Assembly: GCF_014639315.1 (NCBI RefSeq)
Contig: NZ_BMFY01000012.1
Coordinates: 1 to 64,000 of the forward strand
DNA length: 64,000 nt
Direction: 5' to 3'
Source of the DNA: Sediminivirga luteola
GTDB lineage: Bacteria > Actinomycetota > Actinomycetes > Actinomycetales > Brevibacteriaceae
Translations under genes and position numbers: made by a program
Shown: positions 10,182-24,792 of the stretch, piece by piece
Numbering within the stretch: position 1 is the first letter of the stretch
Layout of the letters: every line of letters begins with the position of its first letter
The notes under the pieces: model-generated
Database searches by the model: none
What the model was told of the DNA's origin: nothing
Seen by the model: the letters and a program-made list of their open reading frames with translations, nothing else

Positions 10182-12659
10182 TCAGCGCGCGCCGGGCATC
10201 AGCGTGAACCGGAACCCGGCATTGTCCTCCACTGCCTGCCGCGAGTAGACCAGCGGGAACGTCTCTCCCCGCAGCCACGGACCGAATTGGTCGGCGTAGT
10301 GGCGTGAGCGCGGATCGCCGGATTGCCCCGGGGCGTTCATCGTCAGGCTCCTGTCCCAGTCCCCGACGTCCAGGGCCATCCGGAACGAGGATCCGATGGT
10401 CTGCCGGAAAGTACCGTCGTATCCGGCCAGACCGACGGTGTCACCGGTCCCTCCGCGCGGGACCGGGCCCAGCCGTGCCCACTCCGCGGGAATCCCGGTG
10501 CGCCCGGTGAACGCGGGATGTTCGAGGGCCGTGTGGTGCACAGCACCCCACGACCACGACGCGGTATCCTCCCCCAGAAGCCCCCGGATCTCCTCCAGCG
10601 CCGCCGGCAGCGTGTGCTCGACGACGTTCCGCAAGGCCTGCGGATCGTACTGTCCAAGCAGGGCGGCCATGCGCAGATCCCCTCTGAGGTCTCCGCCGAA
10701 GGACTCGTCCTTCAGGAGGTATCTCTTGGCCTCCTCGATCGCCTGCGGGCTCAGGCCTTGGATCCCGAGGACGGTCTCCACGAGCCGGGGCCGGAGGTGC
10801 CTGCGGGCCCAGACCTCGAAGACGAGCGCTTCACGGGAAGCCGCCTGGGTCCGTCCGTCCCAGGCGCGCAGCCGGCGGAACTCCTCGTGCCTGGGAGTGG
10901 CGCCCTCGACGTCGAGGACGCGCAGCAGTTCGACGGCGTGAACGCTCAGGTCGTCCCATTGCATCGCCGCGGACTCCTCGACCGAGATGCCGCCCGAGCC
11001 ACCGAGCCATTCGCGAAGTCGCGTGGCACGGGCATAGGAGTACCAGTCGTAGGTGACGGTCTGCTCCGTGTTGTCGTGCCCGGCTGGAAGGTTCATCTCA
11101 TTCGCGGAGGCGAACCAGCCCTGGTCCGGACGGCGCAGCGAGGGGAAGTCGGCAAGATCCCACCACCCGTCCCACTCGTAACGGCCGTCGCCCGGGACCG
11201 GGACGCTGCCGTCCCATCCTTTCCGCCGGGGGATGCGGGCGGCCGGCTGCCAGCCGAAGTCCCCATCGGGCGTGGCGTAGATCTGGTTGACCCCCGGCGC
11301 TCCCCAATGCCGCAACGCCGCCAGGAAGTCGTCGGCGTTGCGGGCGTTCATATAGCCCAGGCTGGCGAGATAGGGGACCATGCCCGGTTCCAGCCACGCG
11401 GCTTTCAGCGCCACCGCGACGCCGCGTCCGGTGTCCTCGTAGATCACCGGCCCGTGCCGGGTGAAGCGGAGCGTCACCGCCGCCGTCTTGCCGCCCGCGA
11501 TCCCGATCTCCTCGGTGTGCTCCTCGAACGGAGTCCATTCACCCCGGTAGCGGTACTGACCGCCGTCGCCGGGCCGCGTCTCGTAGACGAACAGATCCTC
11601 CTGGTCGGCCGGCCAGATGGTGAGGCCGAAGGCGATGGCGTCGTTGTGCCCGATCGAGATGCCGGGCAGGCCCGGCTCGCCGGCGCCGACGACGTCGAAG
11701 GCGGGAGTGCTCAGATGCGCGAGGTACCGGAGCGAGGGCAGGGTGACGGCGCGATGCGGATCGTTGGCCAGCACGGGCCGGCCAGTCGAGGTCCTCTCGC
11801 CGGAGACCACCCAGTTGTTGCTGCCGCTCAGCGTTTCACCGGCGCGTCCGGGTTCGGGCTCCCCGGCGAAGGCGACGGGAGAGAAGGCGAGCCGGTAGAC
11901 GCGCAGAACCTCCTCGGAGAAGACCTGCAGATCGGTTCCCTCCGGCACCTGCAGGGGGTCCGCCGGTTCGCGTGCCTGCCTGATCGCCTCGGCTTCGGTC
12001 CCGAACTCGCGCAAGGTGATGCTGCGGGCCAGCTCCTGCTCCGCGTTGTAGAAGAGACCGTGGGTCCGGAATCGCACGTAGTCCTCCGCGGACCACAGCC
12101 GCGGCCGGTATCCGTGCAGATGGAACTCCGGCGGCAACCGGCCAGGTTCCTCGCACGCCCAGGAGATGTAGGCGTTGACCCCGGTGGCGAACGCCTCGAC
12201 CGCCTCGCGGGTCCCGGCGGCGTACGAGGCCCATTCGGCCTCGATACCGCCGCGGTAGCGGAACAGCCGGTTGGCGCGGTCCTGCTCCAGGTAGGCCTCT
12301 CCCAGCACTTCGGCCAGCCGTCCGTTCCCGCGGCGCAGCCACAGGTCGATCTGGAACAGGCGATCGCGGGCGGCGTTGAATCCCTGAGCCAGGAAACCGT
12401 CGCGCGCCGAGGAAGCATAGATGTGCGGTACGCCCCAGCGGTCGACGATCACCTCGACGGGCTCGTCCAGGTCCGGCACGGGGAACTCCGCGTCCTGGGC
12501 GCTCTCGGCGGGCAGAGCGGGATCGATGTGTCCGGCAGGGCCGATGGTCCCGGCAGGACCACGGGTGGGGCCGGCATCTCCCGCCGGGTCTCCGGCGGGG
12601 CCGGTATCGGGGTGGTCAACGGCGCCTGCGGGGTCGTCGGGGGTGAAGTCCGAGGTCAT
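10182..12659 (-). CDS. Penicillin acylase family protein (Ntn hydrolase)
   Basis: N-terminal-nucleophile amidase that should hydrolyse an N-acyl amide. The chosen 825-residue product has alpha-chain motifs VIVDRWGVPHIYASS and NAARDRLFQIDLW. The cleavage/nucleophile site is LSGS-NNWVVSGERT, so Ser280 would become the N-terminus of the beta chain. Unusually for a family of mostly secreted enzymes, no signal peptide is visible; the first 55 residues are a Gly/Ala/Pro/Asp-rich tail. The ATG at 12659 overlaps the stop of the sugar-type permease (ATGA), so it is translationally coupled to an importer. Known relatives act on beta-lactams, acyl-homoserine lactones and other acyl amides; the substrate here is unknown. 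Confidence 0.86.
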   Translation of the reverse strand: MTSDFTPDDPAGAVDHPDTGPAGDPAGDAGPTRGPAGTIGPAGHIDPALPAESAQDAEFPVPDLDEPVEVIVDRWGVPHIYASSARDGFLAQGFNAARDRLFQIDLWLRRGNGRLAEVLGEAYLEQDRANRLFRYRGGIEAEWASYAAGTREAVEAFATGVNAYISWACEEPGRLPPEFHLHGYRPRLWSAEDYVRFRTHGLFYNAEQELARSITLREFGTEAEAIRQAREPADPLQVPEGTDLQVFSEEVLRVYRLAFSPVAFAGEPEPGRAGETLSGSNNWVVSGERTSTGRPVLANDPHRAVTLPSLRYLAHLSTPAFDVVGAGEPGLPGISIGHNDAIAFGLTIWPADQEDLFVYETRPGDGGQYRYRGEWTPFEEHTEEIGIAGGKTAAVTLRFTRHGPVIYEDTGRGVAVALKAAWLEPGMVPYLASLGYMNARNADDFLAALRHWGAPGVNQIYATPDGDFGWQPAARIPRRKGWDGSVPVPGDGRYEWDGWWDLADFPSLRRPDQGWFASANEMNLPAGHDNTEQTVTYDWYSYARATRLREWLGGSGGISVEESAAMQWDDLSVHAVELLRVLDVEGATPRHEEFRRLRAWDGRTQAASREALVFEVWARRHLRPRLVETVLGIQGLSPQAIEEAKRYLLKDESFGGDLRGDLRMAALLGQYDPQALRNVVEHTLPAALEEIRGLLGEDTASWSWGAVHHTALEHPAFTGRTGIPAEWARLGPVPRGGTGDTVGLAGYDGTFRQTIGSSFRMALDVGDWDRSLTMNAPGQSGDPRSRHYADQFGPWLRGETFPLVYSRQAVEDNAGFRFTLMPGAR

Positions 12660-13684
12660 CCGGTCCTCCTCGTGCGCATGATCGCGTCCACCGCGACCGC
12701 GGCGACGACGATGCAGCCCTTGGCGATCATCTGCCAGTGCTGCGAGACGTTCAGGCTGTAGAACACGTTGGTCAGGGTCGCCAGGATCAGCAGTCCGACG
12801 ACCGAGCGCCACATGGCGCCCTCGCCGCCCCGCAGGGAGGTGCCTCCGACCACGACGATGGCGATGGCGTCCAGTGCCAGCATGCCGCCGACGTCCGCCT
12901 GGCCGACACCCAGACGCGAGGCGTCGATCATGCCGGCGAGCGCGGCCAGCACGCCGGTGAGGGCGTATACGCTCCCGTGCAGTCCGCGCACCCGCAGACC
13001 GCTGAGCCAGGCGGCCTCGTAGTTCCCGCCGATCGCGTAGACGTTGCGGCCGAAGGTCGTTTTGGCCAGCAGGAAGGCGCCGATGATGAACGACACGATG
13101 AGGATGATGATGGGCAGGGGGACACCGGCGATCCGCGTGAGCGCGAGATCCTGGAAGGCCGGGTTCCCGTTGACGATGAAGGGCGAGGAGCCGGAGTAGA
13201 TGTAGGCGATGCCTCCGATGATGGAGGAGGTGCCCAGGGTCGCGACGAACGGGTTGATGCCCAGCCGGGCGATGATGGCGCCGTTGAAGCAGCCCACGAG
13301 CAGTCCCGCCAGCAGCGCGCCGAGGCCCGCCGTGAGCACGGAGCCCGTCTGCAGGGTGAGCCCGGCGAACAGCGTGGCACCGAGCGCGTAGGTGGCACCG
13401 ACCGAGAGGTCGAACCCGCCGCTGATGATCACGAAGGTCATGCCGATCGCGATCAGCCCGACGGCAGCGTTCTGAGTGAGGATGTTGCTGATATTGGCCG
13501 GGCTGAGAAAGCCCGGGTAGAGCACCGTCGCGATGCAGATCAGGACCACGAGCGCGCCCAGGATGCTGAACGTGGACACGTAGTGGCGCAAGCCCCGGGC
13601 GCCGCCGCGGCCGCCGGGCTTCCCCGGCGGCGCGTCGGACGCACCGGTGACGGGCTGAGCGTTGGGGATCGTATCTTCTTTCAT
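12656..13684 (-). CDS. Ribose-type ABC transporter permease
   Basis: Membrane subunit of a CUT2 importer (RbsC family). The 342-residue protein has a hydrophilic N-terminus then eight to ten membrane segments. Family features include SPANISNILTQNAAVGLIAIG, the ISGGFDLSVGATYAL segment characteristic of RbsC/AraH permeases, and ARLGINPFVATLGTSSIIGG. The ATG at 13684 overlaps the ATPase stop by four bases and its own stop overlaps the acylase start by four bases, so all three are co-translated. CUT2 systems usually carry pentoses, AI-2 or related polyols, but the enzyme neighbours suggest a different ligand. Confidence 0.9.
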   Translation of the reverse strand: MKEDTIPNAQPVTGASDAPPGKPGGRGGARGLRHYVSTFSILGALVVLICIATVLYPGFLSPANISNILTQNAAVGLIAIGMTFVIISGGFDLSVGATYALGATLFAGLTLQTGSVLTAGLGALLAGLLVGCFNGAIIARLGINPFVATLGTSSIIGGIAYIYSGSSPFIVNGNPAFQDLALTRIAGVPLPIIILIVSFIIGAFLLAKTTFGRNVYAIGGNYEAAWLSGLRVRGLHGSVYALTGVLAALAGMIDASRLGVGQADVGGMLALDAIAIVVVGGTSLRGGEGAMWRSVVGLLILATLTNVFYSLNVSQHWQMIAKGCIVVAAVAVDAIMRTRRTG

Positions 13685-15195
13685 GCTGCTTCCGTTTCTC
13701 CGAAACCGAATCGGACGATCTCCTCGACCGAGTACGCCGTCGAGGCGGTGTCCAGTTCTTTGACGACTTCTCCGTGCGCGAAGACGAGCAGGCGATCGCA
13801 CACGGCCAGGACCTCTTCGAGCTCGGACGAGGTGACCACCACGGCCGCGCCCTCCTCCGCGAGGCGGACGAGCGAGGCGAGCACCTCGGCCTTCGCGCCG
13901 ACGTCGATCCCCCGGGTCGGCTCGTCCACGAGGAGCACGCGGGGCCGGCGGCCGGCCCACTTGGCCAGCAGGACCTTCTGCTGATTCCCGCCGGAGAGAT
14001 GACGGACCGGTTCAGCCAGCCTGCCGGGGTCGAAGCCGAAGAACCTGGCGACCTCGGCGGTGCGTGAACGCTCCTTGACCGGCGAGATCATGCCCTGTCC
14101 GGGGGTCCGGCGGCCGAGCCAGTAGTTCGAGGGCGCATCCATGCCCATCACGAGAGCGGCACGGCGGCTCTCGGGGACCATCGCGATTCCCTCGGCGATG
14201 GCGGCGCGGGCCGAAGACGGCCAGGGCCGCTTCTCACCGTGCAGGACGAGTTCGCCGGAGCTGGCCGGCTCCAAGCCTGACAGGGACCGGAAGAACGTGG
14301 TCCTGCCGGAGCCGACGAGACCCCACAGCCCGACGATCTCCCGTTCCCGCACCCGCATGTCGATGCCCTTCAGCACGCCGGGAAGGACGAGGTTCCGCAC
14401 GGAGAGCGCCTCACCGCCCAGAGCGTGACGGGTCTCGCGCCGGGCGATGACCACGTCCTGGCCCACCATGTGCCGCACCAGGGCGGGCTTGTCCCACTCG
14501 GACCGGGACGCGGAGCGAACCACATCGCCGTCGCGCATGACGGTGATGTGATCACTGAGGCTGAGCACCTCGTTCAGGTTGTGACTGACGATCACGATGG
14601 TCGTCCCCTGAGCCCGGAGGCGGTTGATGATCCGGTAGAGCACCTCGCGTTCCTGCTCCGCCAGCGCAGCGCTGGGCTCGTCGAGCATGAGGATCCGGCC
14701 CTTGGCCTGCACCGCGCGCATGATCTCGATGATCTGCTGCTGCGACACCGACAGGTCGCGCGCCCGGGCGTCCGGGTCGACGAAGACGTCGAACTCCTCG
14801 CACAGCTGGAGGTACCGTGCCCGCATGGCTTTCTCCGACAGGACGGAGGCCCGTGCCATCAGCTGACCGAGGAACACGTTCTCCACCGCCGTGAGCGCCG
14901 GGACCATCGTGAGTTCCTGGTACACCACGGCGATGCCGTGGCGCCGGGTCTGCCGCGGATCGGAGGCATCGAGTTCCTCACCGAACGCCGTGATGGTGCC
15001 GGTGTCGTTCTTCACCCGCCCGGCGATCATTCCCAGCAGCGTCGACTTGCCCGCTCCGTTCTCCCCGACGAGGGCGTGCACCGTGCCGGAACGAATGGTC
15101 ACGCTGGCGTCGCGGACGGCGTACTTGCCGGAGAACCTCTTTGATATGCCCTTGCATTCGATGGCGACCGGTTTCGCTGGCGCTACCGCGTTCAT
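13681..15195 (-). CDS. Ribose-type ABC transporter ATP-binding protein (two NBDs)
   Basis: Double-domain ATPase of the RbsA/MglA/XylG type, 504 residues. Domain 1 has a canonical Walker A (GENGAGKST), signature LSVSQQQ and Walker B ILMLDEPSAAL. Domain 2 has the degenerate Walker A typical of the family (GLVGSGRT), signature LSGGNQQK and Walker B VLLVDEPTRGIDVGAKAEV. The ATG at 15195 has AGGAG 5 bases upstream; an in-frame GTG two codons earlier overlaps that site. It lies between the receptor gene (68 bp) and the permease (4-base overlap). Confidence 0.92.
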   Translation of the reverse strand: MNAVAPAKPVAIECKGISKRFSGKYAVRDASVTIRSGTVHALVGENGAGKSTLLGMIAGRVKNDTGTITAFGEELDASDPRQTRRHGIAVVYQELTMVPALTAVENVFLGQLMARASVLSEKAMRARYLQLCEEFDVFVDPDARARDLSVSQQQIIEIMRAVQAKGRILMLDEPSAALAEQEREVLYRIINRLRAQGTTIVIVSHNLNEVLSLSDHITVMRDGDVVRSASRSEWDKPALVRHMVGQDVVIARRETRHALGGEALSVRNLVLPGVLKGIDMRVREREIVGLWGLVGSGRTTFFRSLSGLEPASSGELVLHGEKRPWPSSARAAIAEGIAMVPESRRAALVMGMDAPSNYWLGRRTPGQGMISPVKERSRTAEVARFFGFDPGRLAEPVRHLSGGNQQKVLLAKWAGRRPRVLLVDEPTRGIDVGAKAEVLASLVRLAEEGAAVVVTSSELEEVLAVCDRLLVFAHGEVVKELDTASTAYSVEEIVRFGFGETEAA

Positions 15196-15263
15196 GATCA
15201 CTCCTGGAGGCTCAGCCGCCGCACCGGGCCCGCGGTCGTGCGCGGGCCCGGTGCGGCGGGCGA

Positions 15264-16334
15264 TCAGTATTCGGCGTCGTAGTCGTCGACGTTCTCGGGG
15301 TAGACGAACGGGCTCCCGTTCGGCAGCGAGTCGAGTTCGGCGAGGTTGACGAACACCGGCGTCTCAGTGCCTTCCACCAGGTCGACGAGGCCCTGCAGCG
15401 CGTAACGCGTCTCCTGCCTCGGGAGCATGATGATCGTCGAAGCCAGTTCTCCGTCGGAGACCCGGTCGAGAGCCCATTCGTCGCCCCCGAAGTCGAACAC
15501 GTCCACATCGCTGCCCGAGGTCGCCTGCACCACCCCGCGGGTCATGCCGGAGAAGTTCGACATGATCACGTCGAGGTCCGGATTGGCCTGCATGATGGTC
15601 TGCGCGGCTTCGAAGGCCTGGGGCGTCGTGTAGTCCGTGGTCTGCTGCGCGACGACCTCGTATCCCTCCTCCGCGTCGAAAGCCTCGGCGGCCTGGAAGA
15701 AGCAGATCGTGTTGGCGTTCAGGTCGGGACCGGAGATGAGCGCGATCTTGGCGCCGTCCGGGTAGGCCTCCTTCACCTGCTCGACCCAGTCCTGGTAGAC
15801 GTCGAGCGTCTGCCCGCCGACGTAGTTGACGGTACCCGGCTGCCAGGTCTCCTCGCCGAGGTTGGTGGCCCGCCCGCAGATGGGCAGGTTGAAGACCGCC
15901 ACCATGACGCCGGCCTCGGGCGCATCCTGGGTGAGCAGGTTGCAGACGAGGTTGCCGTCGTTCGGCTCGACCGCGAAGGCGTTGTAGCGACCGCTGGTCA
16001 GCGCGGTCTGCATCTGGTCGAACTGGACCTGCGCGTCGAACTCGCCGTCGAACACGTCGAGCTCGAAGCCGTTCTCCTCGGCGAAGACGTTCGCCTCGTC
16101 GATGGCCGCCTGCAAGTACTGATTGCTGCTGCCGGCCGAGAAATAGGCCACGCGCAGATCCTCGACCGCGTCGACGGACGGCTCGGGCTGGCCTTCGGCG
16201 CTCTGGGCGCCGCTGCCCGATTCGGCCTCGGCGGCCTGCTGGCTGGGGCTGGTGCAGGCGGTCAGCGTCAGGAGCAGCGCGGCCGCGCAGGCGCCCCAGG
16301 CGAATCGCCGGGTGGGTGAGTCATTCATCGTCAT
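15264..16334 (-). CDS. Ribose-type ABC transporter substrate-binding lipoprotein
   Basis: Extracellular receptor of the CUT2 importer. The 356-residue precursor has a short signal with lipobox LTAC near residue 28 and a Ser/Glu/Gly-rich linker, then a Peripla_BP_4 (RbsB-like) fold. The receptor starts VAYFSAGSSNQYLQAAIDEA and contains GRYNAFAVEPNDG. The start overlaps the deacetylase stop (ATGA), tying the receptor to the upstream enzymes. A Trp/Asn-rich pocket segment and Cys residues (LVCNLL, LPICGRA, ICFFQAA) differ from ordinary ribose receptors and hint at a non-sugar ligand, which is inference only. Confidence 0.87.
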   Translation of the reverse strand: MTMNDSPTRRFAWGACAAALLLTLTACTSPSQQAAEAESGSGAQSAEGQPEPSVDAVEDLRVAYFSAGSSNQYLQAAIDEANVFAEENGFELDVFDGEFDAQVQFDQMQTALTSGRYNAFAVEPNDGNLVCNLLTQDAPEAGVMVAVFNLPICGRATNLGEETWQPGTVNYVGGQTLDVYQDWVEQVKEAYPDGAKIALISGPDLNANTICFFQAAEAFDAEEGYEVVAQQTTDYTTPQAFEAAQTIMQANPDLDVIMSNFSGMTRGVVQATSGSDVDVFDFGGDEWALDRVSDGELASTIIMLPRQETRYALQGLVDLVEGTETPVFVNLAELDSLPNGSPFVYPENVDDYDAEY

Positions 16335-17170
16335 TCACTCCAGGTGTCATAGATGTCGCTGATGGGCGCGAACCATGTGCCGGGGAAGGACGCCATGTAG
16401 TCGATGAGCCGCTCCAGGCCCATGATCATGTGGGCGCGGCCGATGGTCTGCGGGTGCACGGTGATGCACAGGACCCCGCCGGGCACGTTCTTGTACGCGT
16501 AGTCGAAGTGGTCCTGGAAGCGCTTGAACATCGCCTCGCTGGAGCCCAGGCCCGGGTTGGCACCGGGGATGTACTCCTGATCGGGGAAGTCGTCCAGGTA
16601 CCACGAGACCGGGAACTCGAGCACGCTGCTCGGCTCGCCGAAACTGCTGCCGTCTTCCCAGCCGACCGTCACGGGGCGCGGACGATACGGTTCGAAGTCC
16701 CTGCCCATCAGGGACGAGTCCCATTCGAAACCGAACTCCTCCAGGAGGCCGAGGGTCGTCTCGGTGAAGTCCCACGCCGGGGAGCGGTATCCCCGTGGCT
16801 TCTTGCCGACGTGCTTCTCGTGCAACCGGAGGGTCTGTTCCATGAGCCGGCGTTCCTCGTCGGCGTCGAGCTTGGGCACCGGTTCGTGCCAGCATCCGTG
16901 GGCGGCGATCTCGTGGCCGCGCTCGACGATGGACCCGAAGCGCTCGGGGAAGGTCAGCATGGTGTGCGCCGGGGTGCACCAGGTCGTGGTGATGGAATAG
17001 CGCTCGAAGAGGTCGAGGAGGCGCGGCACTCCTACTTCAGCGCCGAACTCTCCGCGGGACAGGTAGCTGGGGCTGCTCAGGCCGAAGGTGCCCATCCAGA
17101 CACTGTGCGCATCGAAGTCGGCTCCGATGCTCACGGCGAGGGTCTTCCCGGCAGGGAGGTTGAGCGGCAT
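16331..17170 (-). CDS. Polysaccharide deacetylase family protein (NodB/PuuE-like)
   Basis: Metal-dependent carbohydrate esterase 4 fold acting on a small N-acyl or ureide substrate. The 279-residue protein carries NodB motifs: motif 1 near residue 18 (IGADFDAH), motif 2 HGCWHE supplying the His pair, motif 3 RSPAWDFTE, and a late HPQTIGR. No signal peptide is present, and the length and motif spelling resemble the cytosolic PuuE (allantoinase-like) branch rather than cell-wall deacetylases. It is embedded between the SDR genes (44 bp) and the receptor gene (overlap), so it probably works on the imported compound. Confidence 0.82.
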   Translation of the reverse strand: MPLNLPAGKTLAVSIGADFDAHSVWMGTFGLSSPSYLSRGEFGAEVGVPRLLDLFERYSITTTWCTPAHTMLTFPERFGSIVERGHEIAAHGCWHEPVPKLDADEERRLMEQTLRLHEKHVGKKPRGYRSPAWDFTETTLGLLEEFGFEWDSSLMGRDFEPYRPRPVTVGWEDGSSFGEPSSVLEFPVSWYLDDFPDQEYIPGANPGLGSSEAMFKRFQDHFDYAYKNVPGGVLCITVHPQTIGRAHMIMGLERLIDYMASFPGTWFAPISDIYDTWSE

Positions 17171-17214: not shown

Positions 17215-17937
17215 TCAGACGGCGAGGAAGCCGCCGTCGATGACCAGTTCGGTTCCGGTGACGAAGCGGGCGTCGTCACCGGCCAGGTAGACGCAGCCGG
17301 CGGCGATGTCCTCCGGTTCGCCGCCGTGGCCGGCCGGGGTCGCGCCGATGACCCGCTCGTTGGCGTCCGCGGGTTGCCGGTCGGTCAGCGGTGTACGGAT
17401 CCAGCCGGGAACCACGGCGTTCACCCGGATCCCCTCGCGGGCGTAGGTGACGGCGGCGTTGCGGGACATCGATCCCACCGCGCCCTTGGCCGCGTTGTAC
17501 GCCGCGACGCCGACGCCGCCCACGACCCCCCAGGCGGAGGAGAGATTGATGATGGAGCCGGCGCGCCGTTCCCGCATGGCCGGGAGGACGGCGCGCATGC
17601 CCAGGTAGACCCCGGTCTGATCCACGTCCAGCACGCGCTGCCACTGCGCGGTGGTGAGCTCGTGGATGGGCTCGTATCCGATGACGCCGGCGGCGTTGAC
17701 GAGGACGTCGACGCGGCCGTAACGGCGCATCACCTCCTCTGCGAGCGAGGCCCAGGCCTCCTCATCGGCGACGTCGAGGCGGCGGGTTTCGATCTTCTGA
17801 TCGCCCGGCCGGTCCTGGTCCGCGATGTCCGCGGCGATCACCCACGCGCCCTCCGCGGCGAACGCTTTGGCGACGGCTCTGCCGATGCCCATGGTCGCGC
17901 CGGTGACGATCGTGACTTTGCCTTCGAGTCTTCTCAT
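17215..17937 (-). CDS. SDR family oxidoreductase (copy 1)
   Basis: Classical short-chain dehydrogenase of 240 residues. It has the cofactor loop VTGATMGIGRAVA (TGxxxGxG), the LVNAAG segment, catalytic Ser in INLSSAWG, the YNAAK catalytic Tyr/Lys pair, and a PGWIRTP loop. The ATG at 17937 has AAGGAG 6 bases upstream; a start 6 codons earlier lacks one. It resembles the next SDR along its whole length, with matching TGVYLGMRA/TGVFFGMRA and PGWIRTP/PGWIQTP blocks, suggesting an old tandem duplication. Probable role: oxidation or reduction of an alcohol or ketone in the pathway served by the ABC importer. Confidence 0.88.
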   Translation of the reverse strand: MRRLEGKVTIVTGATMGIGRAVAKAFAAEGAWVIAADIADQDRPGDQKIETRRLDVADEEAWASLAEEVMRRYGRVDVLVNAAGVIGYEPIHELTTAQWQRVLDVDQTGVYLGMRAVLPAMRERRAGSIINLSSAWGVVGGVGVAAYNAAKGAVGSMSRNAAVTYAREGIRVNAVVPGWIRTPLTDRQPADANERVIGATPAGHGGEPEDIAAGCVYLAGDDARFVTGTELVIDGGFLAV

Positions 17938-17961
17938 GTCTCTCCTTCCGGTCACGACCGC

Positions 17962-18678
17962 TCAGGCAGCCAGGTATCCGCCGTCGACGGGCAGGTCCAC
18001 GCCGGTGATGAACGCCGACTCGTCCGAGGCCAGGAAGACGGCGGCGCCGGCGACGTCGGACGGCGTCCCGGGCCGGCCCAGCGGGGTGGCGTCCAGGAAT
18101 CTGTCGTTGACGTCGGCGCTCTGGCCGGCGGTCATCGGCGTCTGGATCCAGCCGGGCAGGATGGCGTTGGCGCGGATGCCCTGGCGCGCATAGGTGATGG
18201 CGGCATTCTTGGTCATGGTCCGCACGGCGCCCTTGGCGGCGTGGTAGGCGGCGATGCCCGGGACCGCGGCGGCACCGCAGATGGACGAGATGTTGATGAT
18301 GGCGCCGCCACCGCCGGCTTCCATGGCGGGAATCGCGGCGCGCATGCCGAAGAAGACGCCGGTCTGGTTGACCGATACGACCCGGCGCCATTCCTCCAGC
18401 CTGGATTCGTGCACGGACTCCGGCGAGGTGATGCCCGCGTTGTTCACCAGCACATCGAGCCGCCCGGTCCGTTCCAGGACCTTCGCGACCACCTGCGCCC
18501 AGGCGTCCTCATCGGTGACGTCGAGGGCTTCCGTGGCCGCGAGCGCGGGCGCCGAGAATCCCAGCACATCGCATCCGATCACCGTGGCGCCCTCGGCGGC
18601 CATCGCGGTGGCGATGCCGGCACCGATGCCCCGCGAGGCCCCTGTGACGATCGCGACCTTGCCGGTCAGCCGTGTCAT
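17962..18678 (-). CDS. SDR family oxidoreductase (copy 2)
   Basis: Second classical SDR, 238 residues, with VTGASRGIGAG, NNAGI, ISSICG (catalytic Ser), YHAAK and PGWIQTP. It precedes copy 1 by 24 bp and is the first structural gene of the reverse operon. AAGGAG lies upstream of the ATG. The pair could catalyse successive oxidations or form a mixed oligomer. In copy 2 the active-site neighbourhood (SICGAAAVPGIAA) differs clearly from copy 1 (SAWGVVGGVGVAA), so the two probably differ in substrate. Confidence 0.88.
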   Translation of the reverse strand: MTRLTGKVAIVTGASRGIGAGIATAMAAEGATVIGCDVLGFSAPALAATEALDVTDEDAWAQVVAKVLERTGRLDVLVNNAGITSPESVHESRLEEWRRVVSVNQTGVFFGMRAAIPAMEAGGGGAIINISSICGAAAVPGIAAYHAAKGAVRTMTKNAAITYARQGIRANAILPGWIQTPMTAGQSADVNDRFLDATPLGRPGTPSDVAGAAVFLASDESAFITGVDLPVDGGYLAA

Positions 18679-18949: not shown

Positions 18950-20716
18950 CTAAGCCGCCCGTCCTCGCGTTCGTGAGCGCGTCAGCCACGACTGCGGCAC
19001 GAAATCGCCGTCGGTGTACGGGTGCGGGCTCAGGATCCGCTGCTGGCCGCGCTGAATCTGGAAGATGAGGTGGGCAAGGGAGAGCGAGGGATCGGACCCC
19101 GTGCCGGCGTAGGTCTGCGCGGTCTGGCTGGTGTCCCCGAAGTAGTAGGCGCCGTTGACGCCGCGGTACACGATCCGGCGGAGTTCCTTCGTCACGGCGT
19201 CCCTGTCCCGCGGGTTCTCCGCCAGGCGCCATGCCTGCGCGATCAGCTGCACGCGGTCATAGGCGATCCCGGCGTGCGAACGTCCCGGCAGACGGCCGAA
19301 CGTGTTCGCGTACTGGGTGGCGAAGGCACGCGCCAGCGGATCGGAGTAGGTTCCTGTGACGGTGGCCCAGACGAGGCCCTCGGCCCGGTCGCCCATGCGC
19401 TCGTAGAACTTCGGCACACTCGGGGCGTAGAGGGAGTACACCAGGGTGTCGCTCGGTTCGGCGAGGAAGGCGTCAAGGAATCCGACCGTGCCGTCCACCA
19501 GGTAATGGCCGATCATCACCGCCCCGGGCTCGAGCGAGCGGATCCGCTCGGCCATGGCCGACCAGGCGAGCTTCGAGTCGCCCGCCGGCCGCATGACCTC
19601 GAGCTGCCAGCCGAGGCGATCGGCGAGAGCGGCGGCCTCGGCGAGACCGAGATCGGTGAGATCCCATCCGCTCTGGATGATGACCAGCCGGCGCGAGGAG
19701 GGAGCCCACTGCCCGCTCACGCGCAGCTCCTCCATGAACTGCACGAACCGGGGGCCGTAGTGGGAGTCGCTCGGGCACACCTGGAAGATCCGCCCGTACC
19801 GGCCCGGGTCCTGGCTGACCCGCCGCTCCATCGCCGCCAGGGTGGCCGCGTGCAGGTAGATGCCGCCGGCGTCGGCGATCACCTCGTGCGCCAGGTCCTG
19901 GTGGGCCAGATAACCCGAGGTGATGGCATCGGCCTCCTGGTCCGCCATCTGCGTGAAAGCGGCCCGCACGCTGTCCACGTCGAAGATGTCGACATCGGCG
20001 ACGGCCAGCTCGACCCGGCGGCCGTCGATGCCGCCGCGGGCGTTGATCTCGTCGATCGCCAGCTGGCTGGCGTTGACCATCTCCTCGCCGTCCTCGGCGG
20101 CGTGACCGCTCAGGGGCAGCGCGGCACCGATCAGGAGCGGCCGCTTGACCGGCCGTGGCCGTGAGGCCGTCCCGGCCTGGCGTCGAGTGAGCGCCCGCCC
20201 GAGCGCCAGGACGGAGAAGTCGCCCATCTCGCCGGGGAACGGCAGCTTGACCAGGCCCCCGTCCAGCGCCGCGGCCGCCGCTGCGGTCCGGCTGGCGGCG
20301 CCGAGCTTCTGCATGATGTGCTCGACGTGCGTCGTGACGGTACGGGTGCTCAGCGAGAGCCGCTCGGCGATGGCGGCGTTCGAGAGCCCGACGGCGACGA
20401 GCGTGATGATGTCCAGTTCGCGCATCGTCAGATCGAACGGGAGTTCCTCGCACGGCACCGCGGTCACCACCGCGGAAGGAGCGAGGTTCCCGCCACGCTG
20501 GTGCCCGGCAATGCTGAACAGCCTGGGCACGCGCGCCCCGGCAGGCGCCCAGACGAAGGCCGCGTGCTCGATCCTCGCGGCGATCATGTCGCGGACGATC
20601 CTGAGCAGTTCCTCGTCGAGCTGTCCGGCGTCCCCTGCCTCGATGGCGACCATGCGCCCTTCGGCGTCTATCTCGGCGCAGAAGCCGTCCTCCGCGCCGA
20701 ACACTCCGCTATTCAC
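18950..20716 (-). CDS. LuxR-type HTH regulator fused to a periplasmic-binding-protein-like domain
   Basis: The 588-residue protein has three parts. Residues 1-90 form a short N-terminal domain without recognised motif. Residues about 94-150 are a LuxR/NarL helix-turn-helix (LTMRELDIITLVAVGLSN, IAERLSLSTRTVTTHVEHIM). Residues about 193-565 have the signature of the branched-chain-amino-acid/urea receptor family Peripla_BP_6 (IGAALPLSGHAAEDGEEMVN, IDEINARGGIDGRRVELAVA). No signal peptide or membrane helix is seen, so the receptor fold should sense a ligand in the cytosol, as AmiC does for AmiR. It sits immediately upstream of the SDR/ABC/acylase operon on the same strand, so it is the likely pathway regulator. 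Confidence 0.85.
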   Translation of the reverse strand: MNSGVFGAEDGFCAEIDAEGRMVAIEAGDAGQLDEELLRIVRDMIAARIEHAAFVWAPAGARVPRLFSIAGHQRGGNLAPSAVVTAVPCEELPFDLTMRELDIITLVAVGLSNAAIAERLSLSTRTVTTHVEHIMQKLGAASRTAAAAAALDGGLVKLPFPGEMGDFSVLALGRALTRRQAGTASRPRPVKRPLLIGAALPLSGHAAEDGEEMVNASQLAIDEINARGGIDGRRVELAVADVDIFDVDSVRAAFTQMADQEADAITSGYLAHQDLAHEVIADAGGIYLHAATLAAMERRVSQDPGRYGRIFQVCPSDSHYGPRFVQFMEELRVSGQWAPSSRRLVIIQSGWDLTDLGLAEAAALADRLGWQLEVMRPAGDSKLAWSAMAERIRSLEPGAVMIGHYLVDGTVGFLDAFLAEPSDTLVYSLYAPSVPKFYERMGDRAEGLVWATVTGTYSDPLARAFATQYANTFGRLPGRSHAGIAYDRVQLIAQAWRLAENPRDRDAVTKELRRIVYRGVNGAYYFGDTSQTAQTYAGTGSDPSLSLAHLIFQIQRGQQRILSPHPYTDGDFVPQSWLTRSRTRGRAA

Positions 20717-21180
20717 GGCAGTCTCCCTTCCCGGTCTTGCCCGTGATCGACTCAGCCGTGGATTGATAAGAGAGTACGAGAGGCTTATGTGAGACGCCTC
20801 ACATACGAACGGTTTGTTACCTGCTCTTTACGCGCGGGCCCCTTCGCGCCCCGCAGCGCGGCCCTCGCGTTCCCGGACGCGGCCCCGTGCTCGGCAGCGT
20901 GGCGGCCTTCGCCCCCCGGGCCGGCGGCCGGCCCGCCCCATGCCGGAAACCTTCGCAGCACGCTCGCATCGGAAGCGGCGCAGGGCCGGATGTTCATGAG
21001 CGCACTCGGAGCCAGCACCAGGCCGGTGTCGACGACGCCAGACGGGCCTCAACACCCTCGCGGCGGTACGCGGATGCGGCCGGGGCGGTGCGGGCGCCGG
21101 GGCAACCGGCACGGATGCGGCTCCGGCTCACCGGCTCATGACGAAAGCCGGCTGGCCCCCGGGGGTCGCCGCACCAGACT
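20717..21180. promoter_or_regulatory. 464-bp gap with perfect inverted repeat at 20786-20805
   Basis: TATGTGAG-ACGC-CTCACATA (20786-20805) lies 70-89 bases before the LuxR-PBP regulator start, in an AT-richer patch (20756-20820), and is a good operator candidate. The rest of the gap, up to the pxpBC stop at 21181, is GC-rich. Several frames are open there but none has a ribosome binding site or recognisable product. Confidence 0.5.
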
Positions 21181-22803
21181 TCAGCCGTCCGCGTAGAAGC
21201 GCAGGAGGGTTCCGGGGCGGGCCTGTGCCAGAAGAGGCAGTGCCCGGCCGCGCACCACAGCGATGACCGGATAACCGCCCGTGACCGGACGGTCGTTCAG
21301 GAACAGCACGGGCAGCCCGGAGGGAGGCACCTGCAGGGCACCGGTCACGGTGCCCTCGCTGGGCAGCTCCCCGGCGATGGCCCGCTCCAGCGGCGTCTCG
21401 CCCTCCAGCCGCATCCCCACCCGGTCCGATTCCGGCGTGATCCGCCAGGGCTGCTCCAGCAGGCGGGTGCGGGAGTCCGCTGTGAACCAGTCCTCACGCG
21501 GGCCCATCACGACCGGCACGTCGAGCGTCTCGCCGGGCATCGTCGGCCAGAGCTGCGGGTGACCGGCAGCGGTCATGGGCGGCGGACCGGTCTGAAGTTC
21601 GTCTCCGGCGGCCAGCGGTGCCGGTCCCAGGCCGGAGAGGGTGTCGGTGGCGGCACTGCCGAGCACGCGGGGCGCGGCGATCCCGCCGCGGAGGGCCAGG
21701 TAGCTGCGCATCCCCGTGGCCGGGACGCCGATGTCCAGCGCGTCTCCGTCGTGGAGCGCGAAGGCGCGCATATCGCTGATGTGCTCGGTCTCGCCGTCTG
21801 CCCGGGTGATCGTGATCGGCGTTGGTGCACCGGTCAGGGCGGCGGCCAGGATACCGGCGGCGGTGGCGCGGAAACCGCCCAGCGTCAGTTCCAGTGCGGG
21901 GGCGTGCGGGTCGTTGCCGACGAGGCGGTTCGCCTCCCGCAGCGAAGGTGCGTCGAGCGCTCCGGAAGGGGGAACGCCGATGTCCGCGTGTCCCGGGCGC
22001 CCGGCGTCCTGGATGAGCGGACGCAGGCCGGGCACCTCGATGCGCAGTGCGCCGGCGCCCCGCGGGGTTCCGGGTCCGGCGGGAATCTCGCGGTCTGCAG
22101 GATCGGAGGCGGGCGGGGCGGACGCATCGGTGGCCACGAACCGGACGGTGTCGCCTGGCTGCAGCAGCGCGGGGAGGTCTCGCGTCTCGTCCCACAGCGG
22201 GACGTCGGTGCGTCCCAGAAGCTGCCAGCCGCCGGGGCTCTCACGCGGATAGATGCCGCTGAACGTGCCCGCCAGGCCGACGGCACCGGCCGGGATTCGG
22301 GTCCGGGGCGTCTGCCGGCGGGGCACGTCCAGGCTGGGGTGGCCGCCGGTCAGATACGCGAAGCCGGGGGCGAAACCGGCGAAGGCGACCGTGTACCGGC
22401 TGCCGGTGTGGCGTGCGATCACCTCGTCCGGCGTGATCCCCAGCAGCTCGGCCACCTCGCCGAGGTCCTCGCCGTCGTAGCGGACCGGGATCTCGTGGTG
22501 CCGCGCGTCTGTCTCGTCCGGCGTCACCGGCTCCAGGCGTTCCAGTTCCCGTCTGAGGCGATCCGAGCCGGACCGGCCCGAGACGGTACCCACCAGGAGC
22601 GTGCGCGCGGCGGGGACCACTTCGGTGATGTCGTCCAGCCCGGGCCGGCCCTCGGCACGGGCACGTCGTAGCGCCTCGGCGAGACCGAGCACCTCGTCCA
22701 GGTCCGCGCAGTCGAGCAGCAGAGCCGCATCGCCGGCCGGCCGCACCCGCCCGGTACCGGCTGCCTGCCCGCCGCCGGCCTCGGTGCGAGCGGTGTCTGT
22801 CAT
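21181..22803 (-). CDS. 5-oxoprolinase subunits B and C, fused
   Basis: One 540-residue chain joins the KipI/PxpB and KipA/PxpC modules, which are separate genes in Escherichia coli. With PxpA they hydrolyse 5-oxoproline to glutamate using ATP. The N-terminal module (about 15-245) shows [13 protein letters not shown] and the conserved [19 protein letters not shown] segment. The C-terminal module (about 255-535) begins with [17 protein letters not shown] and has GVPPSGALD. The ATG at 22803 overlaps the pxpA stop by four bases, so all parts are co-translated. Fused B-C proteins are also annotated as urea amidolyase-related or allophanate hydrolase, but adjacency to pxpA favours 5-oxoprolinase. 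Confidence 0.9.
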
Positions 22804-23687
22804 CGTGCTTCCTCCTGCGCCGTCATCGCCGCATGTCGTGCCAGTCCGTTCCGGTCTCGCTCCGGGGTGAACGGCGCGATCCGCGCCCCGGCCTCCCGGA
22901 GTCCCGCCGCGACGCGCGCGGCCATCGCGACCGCTCCGGGGGTGTCGCCGTGGACGCACACGGAGTCCGCGCTCAGCCGCAGCCATGAGCCGTCCGCGGC
23001 TCTGATCCGCCCGTGTTCCACCAATTCGACGATGCGTGCGGCCACGGCGTGCGGATCGTGCAGCACCGCGCCGGGTTCGCTGCGGGGCACGAGCGTGCCC
23101 TCAGGGGTGTAGCCGCGGTCGGCGAACGCCTCGGTGGCCGTCGGCAGCCCGGCGGCGTCGGCGGCTCGCAACGCCTCGGAGCCGGGCAGGCCGAGCAGGA
23201 CGAGGGAGTCGTCGATCTCCCGGATCGCGGTGGCCACGTCCCGGGCCTGACGGGCGTCGTGGACGATGGTGTTGTAGAGCGCGCCGTGGGGTTTGACGTA
23301 GCGCACCCGGCCGTCGGCCGCCGCGGCCATCGCCTGGAGCGCGCCGATCTGGTAGACGAGCTGCGGGATGAGCACGGCGCTTGGCACGTCCATGGGACGG
23401 CGGCCAAAACCCTCCCGGTCCTGGTAGGAGATATGGGCGCCGATGGCCACCCCCCGGCTGACGGCCTCGGCCACGGTGGCGCGCATGGTGACCGGGTCGC
23501 CGGCATGGAAGCCGCAGGCGATGTTGGCGCTGGAGACGATCTCGAGCATGGCGGCGTCCCCGGTGCCCGGACTGTGATGCTGCGTCGCGGGGCCAGGCTG
23601 GCGCGCCGGATCGGTGGCAGCCAGCGCCGTCCCGGCGTCCAGGGCGCCTTCGCCCAGGTCCGAGTTCAGATCGATGCTGCTGGTCAT
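22800..23687 (-). CDS. pxpA: 5-oxoprolinase subunit A (LamB/YcsF family)
   Basis: PxpA provides part of the ATP-dependent 5-oxoprolinase with the fused PxpBC downstream. The 295-residue protein keeps the hallmark blocks [47 protein letters not shown] and CVHGD. The chosen ATG at 23687 has GAGGAG 8 bases upstream. Two oddities are an insert of some 25 residues rich in Ala/Pro/His directly after DLGEG, and a conserved loop spelled [14 protein letters not shown] where the family usually has AHPS(F/Y)PD. Divergent from the PfkB kinase, 112 bp away. Confidence 0.9.
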
Positions 23688-23799
23688 GCTCAAACTCCTC
23701 GCCTGCCGGTGCGGCAGCCCGGCGCCTGTGCCACCGCTGGCGGCGAACGTGCACTGCGGGCTGCGCCTGCGCTGGCGGGTTCCTCTAGGATACGGGGCT

Positions 23800-24792
23800 A
23801 TGACTGCTCCCGACGAGGTCGCCCGGCCGCCAGGGGCGCCCCGCGACGGAACGATCACCGTCATCGGCGAGGCGCTCATCGACGTGGTGCACCGGCCGGG
23901 AGAGCCGGCCGGGTCCGCCGAGGAGTTCCCCGGCGGCAGCCCCGCGAACGTGGCGCTCGGATTGGGGCGCCTGGGGCGCACGCCCCGTCTGCTGACGGCA
24001 CTCGGCGATGATGCCCGCGGACGTCAGCTGCGCGCGCATCTGGCGCCTTCCGGGGTGGAGGTCGTCGACCTGGGCGGCAGCTCGCGGACCGCCACCAGCA
24101 CCGCCTGGCTGCGGGAAGACGGCTCGGCCCGCTACGACTTCGATCTGCGCTGGCAACCGGAGGCCGGACGCGCTGCCGCCGAACCCGCGCCGATGTGGGC
24201 GCACACGGGCTCCATCGCAGCGGTGCTGGAGCCCGGCGCCAGCGAGGTGCTGCGCCTGATCCGCCGGTGGCGGGAACGGGCGGTGGTGTCGTTCGATCCC
24301 AATGCGCGCCCGTCGCTGATCCCGGACCCGGCGGCCGCCCGGGAACGGATCGGGCAGCTGGCGGCATTGAGCGATGTGGTCAAGGCCAGCGACGAGGATC
24401 TGGAGTTCCTGGCACCGGGCCGCGATCCGCAGGAGACGGCCTCCCAGTGGCTGGCCTCCGGTGCCTCGCTGGTCTGCGTGACGTTCGGGGGCGAGGGAAG
24501 CCTCGTCCTGACCGCCGATGGCGATCGCGTCGAGGTGCCCGCCGCGGCGGTGATGGTGCAGGACACCGTCGGCGCCGGTGACACCTTCATGGCGGCGCTG
24601 ATCGACGCCTTGGCCGCACACGCCCCGGACCCCGCCGTGCTGCGTTCGGCGGGCCCCGGGGCGGCCGGCTGGTCCCGCCCGGTGGTGGAAGCGGCTGCGC
24701 GGCGAGCCTCGCTGGCCGCCGGGATCACCGTCGCGCGCCGCGGCGCCGACCTCCCGTGGGCGCAGGAGCTGGCCGCGGCCACAGCGCCTTGA
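23800..24792 (+). CDS. PfkB family carbohydrate kinase (fructokinase-like)
   Basis: Sugar kinase of the ribokinase/PfkB fold, 330 residues from the ATG at 23800. Signature 1 is near residues 35-60 ([17 protein letters not shown]). Signature 2 is the anion hole and catalytic base [13 protein letters not shown] near 250. The GEALIDVV start and [11 protein letters not shown] block resemble fructokinases more than ribokinases. AGGA lies about 10 bases upstream. It is divergent from pxpA with no visible pathway link; the phosphorylated sugar is unproven. Confidence 0.83.

Follow-up and report, generated by a model that had tools for sequence, protein, structure and literature searches.

Can a substrate receptor of the transporter type be part of a cytosolic DNA-binding regulator, and if so, what does such a protein sense and which genes does it serve? 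The question is raised by an open reading frame at positions 18950-20716 (minus strand) of the window, by which we mean the whole 64,000-nucleotide stretch of Sediminivirga luteola DNA analysed here. An earlier note on this DNA had described the product as a LuxR helix-turn-helix (HTH) joined to a Peripla_BP_6 receptor, compared it with AmiC and AmiR in one chain, and called the architecture unusual.

Domain architecture and predicted structure

The reading frame is intact, with its GTG start at 20716 and its stop codon at 18950, and encodes 588 amino acids. Combining the frame itself, Pfam, an AlphaFold model and family comparisons, we find a PAS-like N-terminal domain, a LuxR/GerE HTH and a LIVBP-type (Peripla_BP_6) receptor. 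The HTH (residues 96-148; 20273-20431, minus strand) matches GerE with E = 4.3e-17 (61.9 bits versus a curated cut-off of 23.5), and residues 196-535 match Peripla_BP_6 over 329 of 343 profile positions (E = 9.7e-29; 101.5 bits versus a cut-off of 31.7), confirming that both domains lie in one chain. A frameshift or assembly chimera is ruled out by relatives that align end to end over HTH, linker and receptor; one of them (L064) is 60% identical to the regulator across residues 12-582. The HTH is internal, with the receptor after it, and does not occupy the C-terminal position usual for LuxR/GerE proteins. At E <= 1, Pfam returned no match in the regulator to the N-terminal autoinducer-binding domain of quorum-sensing LuxR, to ANTAR, or to either the LacI HTH or a Peripla_BP_1/3-type core.

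Export and membrane association were assessed by Kyte-Doolittle hydropathy only. The highest 19-residue mean of the regulator is 1.38 and falls within the HTH, and neither a signal peptide nor a membrane helix is seen, N terminus included, in agreement with the cytosolic location proposed earlier. By the same measure the protein lacks the export signal or lipoprotein anchor of ABC-transporter substrate-binding proteins (SBPs). The majority of the transporter SBPs homologous to it begin with a Tat-like SRRxFLxG signal, which the regulator does not.

The AlphaFold model, built from 43 sequences with two plasmid rows left out of the alignment, has a mean pLDDT of 91.7 and divides into a small N-terminal domain (residues 12-88; 20453-20683), the HTH (residues 98-152 in the model), a low-confidence linker (residues 181-186, pLDDT <50; 20159-20176) that joins the HTH to the receptor, and a two-lobed receptor (residues 192-567; 19016-20143), all on the minus strand. 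The HTH thus sits between a short N-terminal domain and the receptor, as had been proposed. It superposes on the DNA-binding domain of LiaR with a Z-score of 10.9 (r.m.s.d. is 1.1 Å over 64 residues). The nearest solved protein is the Liv-type SBP 3h5l from Silicibacter pomeroyi, which is found with residues 191-578 by phmmer (E = 9.5e-54) and is also the best structural match to the receptor part (Z 46.6, 30% identity). A binder of pyroglutamate, a cyclic amide, comes second (8wch, Z 39.6), and AmiC (1qo0/1pea) superposes with Z 34.2 at 18-19% identity. The predicted binding-protein fold of the C-terminal part is therefore borne out; of the branched-chain-amino-acid/urea label given to it in the earlier note, the LIVBP type holds, but the closest proteins are the 3h5l subfamily and SBPs encoded beside amide hydrolases.

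The N-terminal domain (predicted beta-beta-alpha-beta-beta-beta) is only tentatively PAS-like, because the HTH dominates the fold list of the N-terminal half. VqmA, a PAS-LuxR protein, is the top whole-length Foldseek match for this half, but with an r.m.s.d. of 7-8 Å, and Pfam finds no PAS domain in the regulator, the predicted fold resembling VqmA only loosely. One could argue from this resemblance that the PAS-like domain is where the true signal is received and that the receptor is vestigial or merely structural, serving dimerisation. We consider this quite improbable: many receptor residues are invariant or close to it in the family (H289, Y320, Y427, Y430, P432, W450, D487) and the receptor fold is unbroken by gaps, whereas the segment ahead of the HTH has almost no invariant residues.

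Comparison with known regulators

AmiC, from the amidase operon of Pseudomonas aeruginosa, is a cytosolic LIVBP-type amide receptor controlling amide-hydrolase genes. As a protein of its own, it holds in check AmiR, which is an antiterminator that binds RNA. The predicted receptor of the regulator shares the AmiC fold, a likeness at the level of the fold, and in this respect the comparison drawn in the earlier note stands; however, in place of a separate receptor and an ANTAR-type antiterminator we find receptor, DNA-binding LuxR HTH and PAS-like domain in a single chain. By analogy, the regulator would work as AmiC plus AmiR in one molecule. With the 3h5l subfamily it has in common an H-A-x-T loop (residues 289-292) and a Y-G pair (residues 320-321), but those are transport proteins without an HTH, and the homologues we saw are mostly exported.

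Fusions of a DNA-binding domain to a periplasmic-binding-protein fold are known from one-component regulators of the LacI/GalR family and from E. coli XylR. The regulator repeats this plan with another HTH and another receptor family; the known proteins have no PAS-like domain and their HTH is terminal, not central. VqmA and other PAS-LuxR regulators likewise place a PAS-like domain before a LuxR HTH but end there, whereas the regulator adds a 400-residue receptor. It embodies no new principle, but the known idea of a receptor-fused regulator in another version.

Two amide-degradation systems come close without sharing the fusion. On the Aminobacter DMFA1 plasmid (L083:4418-8215), a signal-less relative of the receptor lies beside a LuxR/NarL-type regulator and near a dimethylformamidase gene; this regulator, a hybrid histidine kinase and the receptor relative are three separate proteins encoded in a row, their coupling read from gene order, and the cluster may be the same sensor in split form. 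The DmfR protein of Paracoccus aminophilus pAMI2 is a LuxR-family activator of an amide-degradation operon that is induced by dimethylformamide (PMC4543880). It can be dismissed as a known family member, having GerE only: its 344 residues end in a C-terminal GerE domain, and no Peripla_BP domain was detected. On pAMI2, a plasmid-database beta-lactamase call (AAK-1, L087:4206-4469) lies inside an IS3 transposase gene and is probably a database artefact.

A family of fused regulators

The regulator has more than 40 full-length relatives in three bacterial groups. A single-protein pattern scan of genome contigs found none of them; a profile from a six-row alignment did, and across 84,980 species genomes profile scanning located at least 43 loci in Actinomycetota, Alphaproteobacteria and Pasteurellaceae. 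When 394 genomes were sampled evenly across the class, at least four other genomes had the full fusion. Both counts are lower bounds, since the searches either scored only a handful of candidates in each genome or depended on exact peptide patterns. The closest relative among the scanned species genomes is in Microbacterium rhizomatis (60% identity). One fusion each occurs in two genomes of the window organism's own bacterial family and in three of another actinobacterial family, further copies lie on plasmids of Agrobacterium and Paenarthrobacter, and a divergent second copy is present in the window genome (C17, 28% identity). The Paenarthrobacter YJN-D plasmid served as a lead to the iprodione pathway; the literature searched did not tie its genes to the regulator, and we dropped this pathway.

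GerE is present in 45 of 45 aligned members and Peripla_BP_6 in 44, and the regulator has both domains in the family order together with the amidohydrolase or amidase neighbours described below. Annotated relatives carry the NCBI product name "ABC transporter substrate-binding protein". Apart from this name and the homology to SBPs, the reading of these proteins as transporter subunits has little to recommend it and we regard it as scarcely credible: all 45 members contain an HTH, the regulator has no export signal by hydropathy, and at six loci (L028-L030, L054, L055, L061) the regulator gene is divergent from that of a separate, exported Liv-type SBP that has homology with the regulator's sensor domain. 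Those SBPs start with Tat-like signals and the adjoining regulators do not, so this reading is already contradicted.

In a receptor-domain tree, unrooted and with a small sample of unfused proteins, ten HTH-less SBPs form one side of a single branch (support 98/97), which is consistent with a single switch between fused and unfused forms. The Pasteurellaceae members nest in a Rhizobiales group, which suggests horizontal transfer.

In a census of 991 actinobacterial proteins with a LuxR domain, the partners listed are REC, PAS, HDc, AAA, CHD, FHA, PKc, TPR and cold-shock domains, with no binding protein among them (PMC3466318). We found no description of a GerE and Peripla_BP_6 fusion in the literature searched, which included few subscription papers, and a description elsewhere is possible. 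The architecture is thus unusual in that the census does not contain it; it is no one-off, given a family in three bacterial groups and a second copy in the same genome.

Gene neighbourhood and ligand class

Downstream of the regulator, all on the minus strand, lie two short-chain dehydrogenase (SDR) genes (17962-18678, adh_short_C2, 1e-65; 17215-17955, adh_short_C2, 6e-61), a gene for a PuuE/HP0310-like amidohydrolase of the polysaccharide-deacetylase family (16331-17170; Pfam; 5e-50 to 3qbu and 2e-16 to PuuE, 3cl6), a sugar-type ABC system and, last in the run, a gene for an Ntn amidase of the penicillin-acylase family (10182-12812; Penicil_amidase, 7e-196). The ABC system comprises a substrate-binding lipoprotein (15264-16334; Peripla_BP_4, 5.8e-31), an ATPase with two ABC_tran domains (13681-15201; 4.4e-48) and a permease (BPD_transp_2, residues 156-421 of the ORF at 12656-13960, 7e-37), the real start of the permease gene probably lying inside that ORF. 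SDR genes recur beside relatives of the regulator, and orthologues of the ATPase occur at many of their loci. PuuE-like genes number only three in the 3.86 Mb window genome, two of them adjoining the two regulator copies. A scan for sigma-70-like promoters and terminators returned nothing.

The conserved catabolic neighbourhood was absent from the earlier note, and it indicates amides or cyclic imides as the signal. The most conserved neighbour is the PuuE-like gene, found within 10 kb at 37 of 43 distinct non-Pasteurellaceae loci; including nitrilase, penicillin-acylase or C45/AAT-type genes raises this to 40, and ATP-dependent-hydantoinase-type genes to 42. Where relatives of the receptor lack an HTH, the genes next to them are of the dimethylformamidase, amidase and class II histone-deacetylase types. 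At the Agrobacterium locus, the protein nearest to the nitrilase is Nit2, an omega-amidase; an imidase paired with a half-amidase would fit. HP0310, which among solved proteins is closest to the PuuE-like enzyme, carries no signal peptide, and a small-molecule substrate was argued for it; the substrate of the related PuuE is a small cyclic imide (PMC3084791). Taken together, these observations indicate amides and cyclic imides, ureides or lactams as the signal, by association with neighbouring genes rather than by proof.

Alternatively, the receptor could sense a sugar-like or amino-acid-like cargo of the adjacent ABC or MFS transporter, the transporter substrate being the inducer and the amidohydrolases incidental. 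The ribose-type ABC system of the window operon would suit this, as would the six loci at which the regulator gene diverges from one for a Liv-type SBP with homology to the sensor. However, the type of transporter differs between loci (sugar-type ABC, Liv-type ABC, MFS or none) while the PuuE-like and amidase genes persist, and we think sensing of such cargo unlikely.

Four Pasteurellaceae loci (L072, L073, L076, L081) have the regulator directly upstream of genes for a TorC-like multihaem cytochrome and a TorA/BisC-family molybdoenzyme reductase, which suggests S- or N-oxides as the signal at these loci. These members lack amide genes; the ligand class is thus not uniform across the family, and the receptor has probably been retuned in Pasteurellaceae.

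Just ahead of the regulator (21181-23981, minus strand) lie carboxyltransferase C/D, carboxyltransferase A/B and LamB/YcsF genes of the 5-oxoprolinase PxpA/B/C type, which would be a further enzyme for a cyclic amide. None of the relatives' loci has LamB/YcsF and carboxyltransferase genes, and the LamB/YcsF gene is the sole copy in the window genome; their closeness is therefore probably incidental, and 5-oxoprolinase was set aside as the controlled pathway.

Candidate operators

A perfect 8+8 bp palindrome, TATGTGAG-N4-CTCACATA, lies 70 bp upstream of the regulator start (20786-20805, no strand assigned). It is the only match in the window with up to three mismatches allowed (0.02 expected) and the sole perfect copy in the genome; it could serve another regulator. 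At five loci of the six-locus sub-branch, the shared promoter region holds a near-perfect palindrome, ATCCGTCA-NN-TGACGGAT, which is degenerate in the sixth (L061). Their aligned upstream regions agree at this site and little elsewhere, with diverging flanks. Near copies occur 57 bp upstream of the start in the distant L037 and just beyond the gene end in L065. The shared CGTCA-NN-TGACG candidate was found neither in the window nor at most loci, so the operator is branch-specific or located elsewhere. Searching upstream of the window's close relatives gave palindromic motifs scoring little above shuffled sequences, and no common operator can accordingly be named for this branch. The motif that this search picked up in the gap between the regulator and SDR genes, GCAAGGTCGCGATCGTCA, was rejected as an operator because it looks like a conserved SDR coding start. 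Sites of two-fold symmetry would suit a dimeric GerE protein, and we infer that the regulator may use such candidates.

Palindromic candidates near start codons at some loci also invite the idea of a repressor released by its ligand, and the action of AmiC on AmiR is itself a negative one. Most regulators of the GerE/LuxR-NarL type are activators, however, and candidate positions of -57 to -124 relative to the start codon are equally compatible with activation; repression seems to us rather unlikely, if the least remote of the competing ideas.

Proposed mechanism and implications

Probably, then, the protein is a cytosolic one-component regulator whose C-terminal receptor binds an amide-type metabolite and whose LuxR HTH acts on a palindromic operator, controlling its own gene and the adjacent transporter and amide-hydrolase genes. 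The LIVBP-type domain would bind a small amide-type metabolite after uptake, most likely a cyclic imide, ureide or lactam, or the corresponding half-amide, which the neighbouring catabolic pathway would use as substrate or form as an intermediate. Closure of the two lobes may alter the dimer geometry of the PAS-like domain and the LuxR HTH, which would then occupy a two-fold palindromic operator, and this would shift, probably upwards, transcription of the regulator gene as well as of the transporter and amide-hydrolase genes beside it. We favour this explanation because of the GerE and Peripla_BP_6 domains in 44-45 of 45 members, the confident AmiC-like model, the missing signal, the amidohydrolase neighbours, the palindromes and the pyroglutamate-binder match; against it we count the Pasteurellaceae members without amide genes, an operator that is not shared, and a window palindrome that may be another regulator's.

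The family is scattered and apparently undescribed; it is conserved, mobile, mislabelled and consistently linked to amide hydrolysis. On balance we lean towards an undescribed one-component class that arose when, in a single event, an ABC-importer-type receptor was joined to an internal LuxR HTH with a PAS-like domain. Its spread between Actinomycetota, Alphaproteobacteria and Pasteurellaceae would have been partly plasmid-borne, and it would act as an exchangeable sensor that serves amide/imide catabolism and, in the Pasteurellaceae, a respiratory oxide reductase; on this reading it was overlooked because annotation labels its members transporter components. A whole regulator family is of more interest than a single odd protein. 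It offers a testable set of cytosolic biosensors made by nature, in which receptors of the transporter type are coupled directly to DNA binding and the genes alongside give a clue to each member's ligand. It shows a route from an AmiC-type receptor to a direct transcription factor, exposes database entries wrongly labelled as transporter subunits, and indicates an uncharacterised amide/imide degradation pathway across phyla, with a PuuE-like enzyme, an SDR pair and an Ntn amidase.

Some copies appear to be in decay. On Paracoccus pantotrophus plasmids the nitrilase, deacetylase and regulator frames are in pieces (L039:9856-13430), apparently a decayed locus, and in genome G004 (L016 / L031:4785-6503) receptor and MFS fragments next to hydantoinase genes look like a decayed copy.
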